Shown piece by piece: positions 12,729 to 15,987 of a DNA stretch of 50,190 nucleotides. The translations under genes and the position numbers were made by a program. Position 1 is the first letter of the stretch; every line of letters starts with the position of its first letter. Source of the DNA: Actinomycetes bacterium (lineage in GTDB: Bacteria; Actinomycetota; Thermoleophilia; Solirubrobacterales; Solirubrobacteraceae); assembly GCA_021820105.1 (NCBI GenBank), contig JAKAED010000009.1:1-50190 (forward strand). The letters run 5' to 3'. The notes under the pieces were generated by a model that saw only the letters and a list, made by a program, of their open reading frames with translations, made no database searches and was not told where the DNA came from.

Positions 12729-15365
12729 ATGGCGACGATTGACACCCTCGGTGGCGGCAACATCGAGCCGCGCGGGCTCGAGGAGGAGATGCGCTCCGCG
12801 TATCTCGACTACGCGATGTCGGTCATCGTCGGCCGCGCACTGCCGGACGTCCGTGACGGGCTGAAGCCCGTCCACAGGCGTGTCCTGCACGTGATGAACG
12901 AGATGAACCTGCGGCCCAACCGCAAGCACGTCAAGTCTGCGCAGATCGTCGGCGAGGTGATGGGCAAGTACCACCCGCATGGCGACTCGGCCATCTACGA
13001 CACGCTCGTGCGCCTCGCCCAGGACTTCTCGATGCGGTACCCGCTCGTTGATGGCCACGGCAACTTCGGCAACGTCGACGGTTGGCCGGCAGCCGCCATG
13101 CGTTACACGGAGGCGCGCCTGGCGGAACTGGCCGAGGAGATGCTGCGCGACATTGACCGTGACACGGTCGATTTCGTGCCGACCTACGACGGTGGCACGC
13201 GCGAGCCGCTCGTCCTTCCGGCGCGCTTCCCAAACCTGCTGGTCAATGGCTCATCGGGCATCGCGGTCGGGATGGCGACCAACATCCCGCCCCACAACCT
13301 GCGTGAGGTTGTGGCGGCCACGATCGCCTACATCGACGACCCCTCGATCGAGCTCGAGGGTCTGATGAAGTACATCAAGGGACCGGATTTTCCGACGTCC
13401 GGGACGATCCTTGGTCGGGACGGCATCCGCGACGCGTACGCCACCGGCCGCGGCCGCGTACGCGTCCAGGGCAAAGCCCACATCGAGCCGATCGGGCAGG
13501 GCAAAGAGGCGATCATCATCACCGAGCTTCCCTACCAGGTACGCAAGAACGGTGACGGTGGCCTGATCGAGAAGGTCGCAAACCTTGTTGACGACAAGAA
13601 GATCACGGAGATCACTGACGTCCGCGATGAGTCAGACCGCCGCGGAATGCGGATCGTGATCGAGCTCAAACGCGACGCGATTCCCAAGGTCGTTCTCAAC
13701 AAGCTTTACAAGCACACACCGCTGCAGACGACCTTCGGCGTGAACGTCGTCGCGCTGGTTGACAACGTGCCTCGCACGCTCTCCTTACGAGAGGTCCTTG
13801 GGCATTATGTGGATCATCAGCGCGAGGTCGTGGTCAGGCGCACCAAGTACGACCTGCGCCGCGCGGAGGAGCGGGCCCACATCCTCGAGGGCCTGCTCAT
13901 CGCCCAGGACAACCTGGACGAGGTCATAGCCCTGATCCGCGGCTCCGCGGACCCCGAAGAGGCCCGGATCGGGCTGCTGGAGCGCTTCGCCCTCACCGTC
14001 GTTCAGGCTGAGGCGATTCTTCAGCTCACGCTCAGGCGCTTGACCGCCCTGGAGGCGGACAAGATCCGTGCCGAGCACGCCGATCTCGTTGAGCGCATCG
14101 CTGAGCTGCGCGCGATCCTGGGCGATGAGGCGAAGGTCTACGGGCTGATCAAGGAGGAGTTGCAGGAGATCGCCGACAAGTACGGCGACGAGCGGCGCAC
14201 GGAGATCACCTTTGCCGAAGGCGAGATCGACATCGAGGATCTGATCGCCGACCAGCAGATGGTGATCTCGATCACGCACTCCGGCTATATCAAGTCGCTG
14301 CCGTTGTCCACCTACCGCCAGCAGCGACGCGGTGGCGTGGGCGTGATGGGAATGGACACCAAGGAAGACGACTACATCGAGCACCTGTTTGTCACATCCA
14401 CCCATGACTTCCTGCTCTTCTTCACCAATCGCGGCAAGGTCTACTGGCTGAAGGTCTACGACCTCCCCGAGCAGTCCCGAACCGCCAGGGGTCGCGCGCT
14501 GGTCAACCTGCTGCCGCTGCGCGAGGGTGAGAAGGTCCAGTCGGTACTGAACACCCGTGACTTCACCGAGGGCAAGTACCTCGTGTTCGCAACCCGCAAT
14601 GGGATCATCAAGAAGACGGAGTTCCTTGCGTACAACACCCCCATCAAGGCCGATGGGATCATTGCCATCAACATTCGCGATGACGACGAGCTGATCGCTG
14701 TGCGCAAGACAAGTGGGCACGACGACATCATCATGGTCTCGCGTTCCGGCCAGGCGGCCCGCTTCAGCGAGGACAAGGTTCGCGCCATGGGCCGCGACAC
14801 CTCCGGTGTGCGCGGGATGAACGTCGGGCAGCCGGGGAACGCAGTGCTTGCCATGGACGTTGCTCGCGACGATCAGGAGCTGCTGGTCGTCACGGAGAAC
14901 GGTTACGGGAAGCGCACCGCCATCTCCGAGTACCCCGCCAAGAACCGCGACACGATGGGCGTCAAGACCATCGCCCTCACGGAGAACAAGGGCGCGCTCG
15001 CGAGCGCGCTGGTGGTCCGTGAGCACCAGGAACTGGTCTTCATCTCCCAGGAGGGCAAGGTTCAGAGGATCTCCGTGCGCGACATCAGTCGCTACGGGCG
15101 GGCTTCACAGGGCGTCCGCCTGATGAACATCCGTGAGGACGATCAGGTCAGCGCCGTTGCGCTGGTGGTCGAGAGCGAGCCGGCCGCAGATGATGCTCCA
15201 GCCATCGCTGAGTCTGCACCGTTGGCAGACGCTCCGACTCAGGCAGACGAGACCGCGGAGGAAGGTCCTCACCCCGAGGCGCTGGACGAGGACCTTGACC
15301 TGGGCGACATCGACGGTGTCATCGCCGTTGATGACGACGATCCGGAAGCCGCTCCCGAGGACTGA
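12729..15365 (+). CDS. gyrA: DNA gyrase subunit A
   Basis: [42 protein letters not shown], catalytic AAAMRYTE, GyrA box QRRGGVG; acidic C-terminal tail. Confidence 0.97.
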
Positions 15366-15641: not shown

Positions 15642-15684
15642 TCGTGCAGCCTACCGCCCTGCACCCTTGCCACTGGCGCAAAAG

Positions 15685-15716
15685 ACGAGGGGCGCCGTCT
15701 GCACGGCGCCCCTCGT
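15685..15716 (-). terminator. Strong intrinsic terminator hairpin
   Basis: Perfect 14-bp stem ACGAGGGGCGCCGT/ACGGCGCCCCTCGT with a 4-nt loop; followed on the minus strand by CTTTTG. Confidence 0.8.
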
Positions 15717-15900
15717 AACTGCAACGGCTGGCATCGCTGCCCTGGCACTAACGTCGCCGGCGGGACCAGGCCGGCGCCAGAACAGTGGTGTCACGGTTGG
15801 GACTCCGCCAAGGGCGGTCAGCCATCCGACCTAGCGGCCGGACACCTCCAGGGTCCCATAAGTACTGTCAGACAGGTGGACCACCTCCTTTCTCTGGTAG
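15685..15900 (-). ncRNA. Putative structured small RNA / short-ORF transcript (hypothesis)
   Basis: AGAAAGGAGGTGGTCC at 15878-15893 (-), 7-bp hairpin 15755-15776, 5-bp hairpin 15805-15817, ending in the 14-bp terminator. Confidence 0.35.
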
Positions 15901-15987
15901 TCACAACCTTACAACGCGCGGCGGCAGATCGGAACCGCATCGCATGGTTTCAGCTTCAGCGACCCTCCACCCACGCTTTGCGCGGGG

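Follow-up and report, generated by a model that had tools for sequence, protein, structure and literature searches.

We show that the window, that is, the whole 50,190-nt stretch of DNA analysed, carries on its minus strand a single-copy gene for a structured RNA of about 219 nt, which has its own conserved promoter and terminator and is homologous to the actinobacterial sRNA Ms_IGR-5. What was already known is Ms_IGR-5 itself, as an Rfam family of actinobacterial sRNAs without an assigned function, and no description of an ORF within it was found in the open-licence literature that we searched. What is new is a short ORF whose frame is conserved, the pairing of the second half of this ORF with downstream RNA through helices and a pseudoknot, and the independence of the gene. 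The initial annotation of this DNA had proposed a compact structured transcript of its own, a small RNA or a regulatory short-ORF transcript, with an extended anti-16S sequence, and had held that homologous loci devoid of conserved structure or peptide would speak against it. The alignments agree with an independent transcript whose 5' end recruits ribosomes and whose short ORF is genuinely conserved, as homologous loci retain both structure and frame; the relation to the Rfam family RF02471 (Ms_IGR-5) was absent from it.

The transcript is predicted to run from the A of ACCAGAG to the T-run of a terminator (15680..15898, minus strand), with its ends inferred from a conserved -10 element, a conserved ACC/ACAC start and the 3' terminator; the RF02471 match spans 15728-15898 of it. 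The -10 element in the window is TAAGGT (15906..15911, minus strand), and the sequence TANNNT recurs among homologues: 63 of 102 have it 20-21 nt ahead of the A(A/G)GGAGG motif, as against about 0.001 per position downstream. Sequence and fold indicate an intrinsic terminator at the 3' end (15680..15716, minus strand), whose stem of 14 bp, with arms at 15716-15703 and 15698-15685, encloses a GCAG loop and is followed by CTTTT, and the perfect 14-bp terminator annotated earlier at 15685-15716 is present.

In the window, the RNA gene sits between a gene for an HNH endonuclease (16578-15988, minus strand; PF01844/PF14279) and a DUF2277 gene (15641-15372, minus strand; PF10041), which lies between the RNA and gyrA on the same strand as the RNA, and gyrA (12729-15365, plus strand) is convergent with the RNA. 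The order HNH then RNA, with gyrA convergent, holds in the window's genus, whereas in most genera of the family gyrA is followed by the RNA on one strand and HNH is convergent, that is, on the opposite strand; the link to the HNH gene that had been drawn at first is not supported and was rejected. In loci of the mycobacteria/Streptomyces type, a label inferred from model scores and the literature, no neighbour of the HNH or gyrA type turned up within about 1.5 kb. Neighbour order and orientation vary between genera, and no regular same-strand downstream gene was found. Because genera differ in how the RNA is oriented with respect to gyrA and HNH, we conclude that the RNA is an independent gene and not the leader of one particular gene. 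The flips in orientation occur between genera of one family (L034-L056; 12729-16578 in the window) and amount to local inversions of small size within a gyrA-HNH-pheA neighbourhood that is itself stable. Among the RNA loci searched, the window is the only one in which DUF2277 was detected beside the RNA.

The 5' end of the RNA contains an extended anti-16S, or Shine-Dalgarno, sequence, AGAAAGGAGGTGGTCC (15878..15893, minus strand), as the initial annotation had seen. The 16S genes of same-genus genomes end in GGCTGGATCACCTCCTTTCT, and 16 of 16 positions of the anti-16S 16-mer can pair with this tail, 15 of them as Watson-Crick pairs and one as G.U. The 14-mer AAAGGAGGTGRTCC has one occurrence in the 4-Mb source genome, which is an incomplete assembly of 264 contigs. 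Of 199 genomes in the window's class, 115 carry the 15-mer GAAAGGAGGTGGTCC, as do 64 of 94 genera; a genome that has it nearly always has one copy, and a reversed control of the 15-mer has zero occurrences across the same genomes; the 5' motif is therefore not due to chance. In the alignment of the loci, conservation continues for about 200 nt beyond the anti-16S motif, and on this comparison the 15-mer is the predicted 5' end of a conserved RNA.

At Rfam gathering thresholds, the window yields only a tRNA, with no match at the RNA locus, and the relation to Ms_IGR-5 emerges instead at an E-value threshold. RF02471 matches 15898-15728 over model positions 1-184 of 184 with 36.2 bits (E 8.8e-7), which falls below the gathering cut-off of 45 bits. 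Across the window's phylum, 48 of 247 genomes have a match at E<=0.001 and 22 are above the cut-off, with up to 176 bits, and 0 of 14 control genomes are matched; a relative from another genus of the window's family (G035) scores 45.5. Given that scores grade across the phylum in this way, homology to Ms_IGR-5 is likely, though the window misses the curated cut-off. A sister-lineage locus (L033) scores just 11 bits, which argues that the Rfam model misses the sister-lineage subtype. The window RNA shares with Ms_IGR-5 the 5' anti-16S sequence, the ORF end (GAGGTG..CGCTAG), the positions of the elements P1, P2 and PK1 described below, and its standing as a stand-alone gene, but it differs in having a longer ORF, a bulged P1 and a U-run terminator, and its element PK2 is not established in the Ms_IGR-5-type set. 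The first helix of Rfam's Ms_IGR-5 has non-standard pairs in the window, and the Rfam consensus drawing does not contain the P1/P2/PK1 arrangement. Transcripts of Ms_IGR-5 have been reported in S. lividans (PMC8079986) and S. avermitilis (PMC8780764), and ribosome footprints on it in M. abscessus and M. smegmatis (PMC4974804).

The short ORF of the window RNA runs over 14 codons from CTG to TAG, LSDSTYGTLEVSGR (15831..15875, minus strand), with a first residue that is presumably fMet, and its start lies 8 nt after AGGAGG, where an ORF of about this length had been noted before. An in-frame ORF is present in 103 of 103 distinct homologues, a set of related sequences in which this and the following counts are inflated, and the position of the stop codon, just after the GAGGT motif, corresponds between them, the codon being TAG in 87, TGA in 12 and TAA in 4. 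The first near-cognate start after GGTCC is in frame with the stop in 95 of 103, where one third is expected, the stop having been chosen regardless of frame; two apparent exceptions are artefacts of the choice of stop, and the frame is open in every sequence. From a near-cognate codon, frame 0 is open in 102 of 102 sequences, as against 1 of 102 and 28 of 102 in the other frames. The homologues have 18 different combinations of start offset and length, the conserved ORF being 10-15 codons long, and in the sister lineage the stop is displaced by 1 nt relative to GGAGGT with the frame still open. Start codons among the 103 are TTG (39), GTG (25), CTG (14), ATC (14), ATG (6), ATT (4) and ATA (1), such that 97 are non-AUG. 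An overlapping GTG, which the initial annotation had offered as a further start in the window, was rejected as a conserved start, since start offsets in homologues vary out of register with it.

The encoded peptide is loosely conserved, as MSDSxxGTLEVxGR in the window type, ..RTREVAxR in actinomycetes and ..TGSGGTSG in the sister lineage. For the previously proposed peptide STYGTLEVSGR, the amino acids are thus only partly conserved, and the ORF and its stop are conserved better. Third codon positions do not vary clearly more freely than the other two, as expected if RNA structure dominates, and the case for selection on translation therefore rests on frame, start and stop. For the same reason, what is conserved appears to be mainly that the ORF is translated up to a fixed stop, and less the peptide.

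We named the elements of the structure (P1, P2, P4, PK1 and PK2) from the sequences and then counted them on 22 window-type sequences. Over 30 pairs, 94.5% of cells are paired as against 28-46% in slid controls, a percentage that is biased because the structure was drawn from the same sequences. The stronger part of the evidence is covariation, with double changes in 11 pairs as against 3.7 in shuffles. None of the shuffles comes up to the observed data in paired cells, in double changes or in covariation score, although such counts are not probabilities, since the sequences are related. In 12 sequences of the mycobacteria/Streptomyces type, the equivalents of PK1, P1 and P2, together with a long closing helix, have 86.4% pairing and 37 double-change cells where 15 are expected.

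All elements are on the minus strand. In PK1, the 5' strand GGGACC (15852..15857), which forms ORF codons 7-8, pairs with GGTCCC (15762..15767) in the loop of the hairpin P4, with 97.7% of cells paired and double changes in 3 of 6 pairs. P4, GCCGGC-CTGGTCCC-GCCGGC (15756..15775), presents this loop and has 97.3% of cells paired and double changes in 4 of 5 pairs. In P1, GGTGTCCGG (15838..15846), which overlaps the last ORF codons, pairs with CCGTGACACC (15787..15796), which has one bulged base; 92.9% of cells are paired and 2 pairs have double changes, and for the equivalent helix in the mycobacteria/Streptomyces-type set the values are 89.2% and 4 pairs. In P2, CCGCTAG (15831..15837), which includes the stop codon, pairs with TTGGCGG (15805..15811) in 90.9% of counted cells. 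PK2 joins GGCTG (15819..15823), in the loop of P2, to CAGCC (15726..15730), and in the window's lineage 94.4% of cells are paired with this CAGCC / CCAGTC site, including GC to UA and GC to CG changes. By inspection of the sequence, CTGTTCTGGC (15776..15785) is complementary to GCCAGGGCAG (15737..15746), forming a putative P3 in a region that aligns poorly. Of the two hairpins annotated at the outset, at 15805-15817 and 15755-15776, both exist, but the former competes with the better supported P2 (15837-15831 / 15811-15805). The minimum free energy (MFE) fold of the window RNA differs from this structure and is pseudoknot-free, and the comparative pairs were preferred to it; given an MFE z-score of only -2.68, our case rests on the comparative evidence.

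The ORF end GGAGGTGtCC (15838-15846) resembles the Shine-Dalgarno sequence GGAGGTGGTCC (15878-15893), and due to this resemblance the 3' strand of P1 can also pair with the Shine-Dalgarno sequence in some relatives. Local self-pairing of the Shine-Dalgarno sequence, AGGTG-GTC-CACCT (15886-15874), had been suggested as well; it is present in the window but confined to it and two same-genus loci, and was rejected. In the sister lineage (f7, L006-L033), one 3' segment, CGCTGGTAACC, has two possible partners: the end of the ORF, GGTACCAGCG (95.4% of cells), and a site downstream, GCCAGCGT (96.7%). The two pairings are mutually exclusive and look like a two-state switch. The covariation test is weak in this lineage because the sequences are too alike.

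Since the 5' strands of PK1, P1 and P2 lie within the ORF, a translating ribosome must open all three. On the basis of this geometry, we lean, with somewhat better than even confidence, toward the hypothesis that the RNA is translation-gated, with translation of the ORF melting the fold. Ribosome traffic probably switches the shape of the RNA. Counted from the start codon, PK1 starts at about +14 to +20, and the edge of an initiating ribosome's footprint falls about where PK1 begins. We propose that pairing over 15-16 bp at the Shine-Dalgarno sequence would capture a 30S subunit, that initiation at the near-cognate codon would be slow and conditional, and that the initiating ribosome would halt just short of PK1. 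Once elongating, the ribosome would melt PK1, P1 and P2 and would terminate inside the core. As the core helices would be melted in this process, the folded and translated states would be mutually exclusive, and the trans activity or lifetime of the RNA could then report ribosome availability or initiation.

Some of the same features would suit a ribosome decoy or a role in hibernation, in which the anti-16S duplex, the weak start codon and the leading-edge pseudoknot together would trap 30S subunits or initiation complexes and productive translation would not follow, as might happen in stationary phase. Anti-16S complementarity of 15-16 bp, non-AUG starts in 97 of 103 homologues, a PK1 that begins at the edge of the initiating ribosome and the ribosome footprints on Ms_IGR-5 all fit such a trap. 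Nevertheless, a pure trap would not require an ORF that is kept in frame and ends at a conserved stop, and very high RNA abundance would be required to titrate ribosomes, and we consider this explanation unlikely. The ORF is itself accounted for if the RNA is an ordinary mRNA for a micropeptide of 12-15 aa, with the 3' structure merely stabilising the message. The presence of the ORF in every homologue is consistent with this, as are the recurring motifs SDS...GTLEV.GR or REVA.R and the encoding of serine as both TCN and AGY. We judge it quite unlikely, however, given that the sister lineage retains the RNA motif but has an unrelated peptide end (GSGGTSG), that there is no third-position excess, and that PK1, P1 and P2 fall within the ORF.

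That Rfam annotates the family as an sRNA, and that the gene is stand-alone with a terminator, would also agree with a trans-acting base-pairing sRNA in which the anti-16S match and the ORF are by-products of another constraint. Such a constraint would leave the frame, the set of start codons and the interchange of stop codons unexplained, and the 5' motif matches 16S along its whole length, which makes this reading very improbable. Lastly, a leader-like short ORF, alternative hairpins and a terminator make up the classic layout of an attenuator, and DUF2277 is next on the same strand, so that the RNA might act in cis on a neighbour gene (HNH or DUF2277 here, others elsewhere). This we regard as the most improbable of the explanations, because neighbours and relative orientation vary, with gyrA then RNA and HNH convergent in most genera, DUF2277 was detected beside the RNA in the window only, and there is no regular same-strand downstream gene among those found.

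RNAs of the Ms_IGR-5 type, annotated as non-coding sRNAs, carry a frame-conserved ORF that is locked into a pseudoknotted core and preceded by a very strong docking site for ribosomes, in a range that takes in mycobacteria, Streptomyces and deep-branching relatives. The function of the RNA is now directly testable via the start codon, the stop codon and the fold. These features suggest that bacteria may have dedicated RNAs for reading out ribosome availability, and an alphaproteobacterial parallel hints at widespread use of the same trick.

This parallel is CC2171 (RF01867), an alphaproteobacterial sRNA that has the same 5' sequence, GAAAGGAGGTGATCC, followed by a conserved short ORF, structure and a terminator. 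It differs from the window RNA in its peptides, in a GTG start at fixed spacing and in its fold. On the CC2171 model the window scores 27.2 bits against a gathering cut-off of 75, mostly from the shared 5' motif; as this model has matches at E<=1 in six control genomes, one of them over the cut-off, weak matches were ignored. An exact scan for GAAAGGAGGTGATCCAGTGTC gave at least 120 stretches (L142-L261), nearly all titled as alphaproteobacteria. Among the matches listed, the CC2171-type ORF runs from the immediate GTG to a stop in 115 of 116 distinct sequences, and its lengths cluster by group. One such group, with 18 codons in 37 sequences among these matches, has TAG in 16, TGA in 11 and TAA in 10 at one conserved stop place. 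Third positions are again not freer in the matches listed, and the peptide sequence is variable. It is a tentative possibility, on balance doubtful, that Ms_IGR-5-like and CC2171-like RNAs, whether as two branches or by convergence, belong to one widespread class of free-standing RNAs with a 5' complement of the entire 16S tail and a short ORF, in which translation to a fixed stop, and not the peptide, would switch the fold, so that they would sense free ribosomes or the fidelity of initiation.

With tmRNA, the window RNA shares only a short ORF within a pseudoknotted stable RNA. It has no tRNA-like domain, and its translation would start on its own Shine-Dalgarno sequence; ARAGORN found no tmRNA in the window, and there was no Rfam tmRNA match. 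SgrS and RNAIII are dual-function sRNAs, in which a regulatory RNA also carries an ORF. The window RNA is distinct from these in that its ORF and structural core overlap, where theirs are separate, and in that its anti-16S sequence spans the whole 16S tail.
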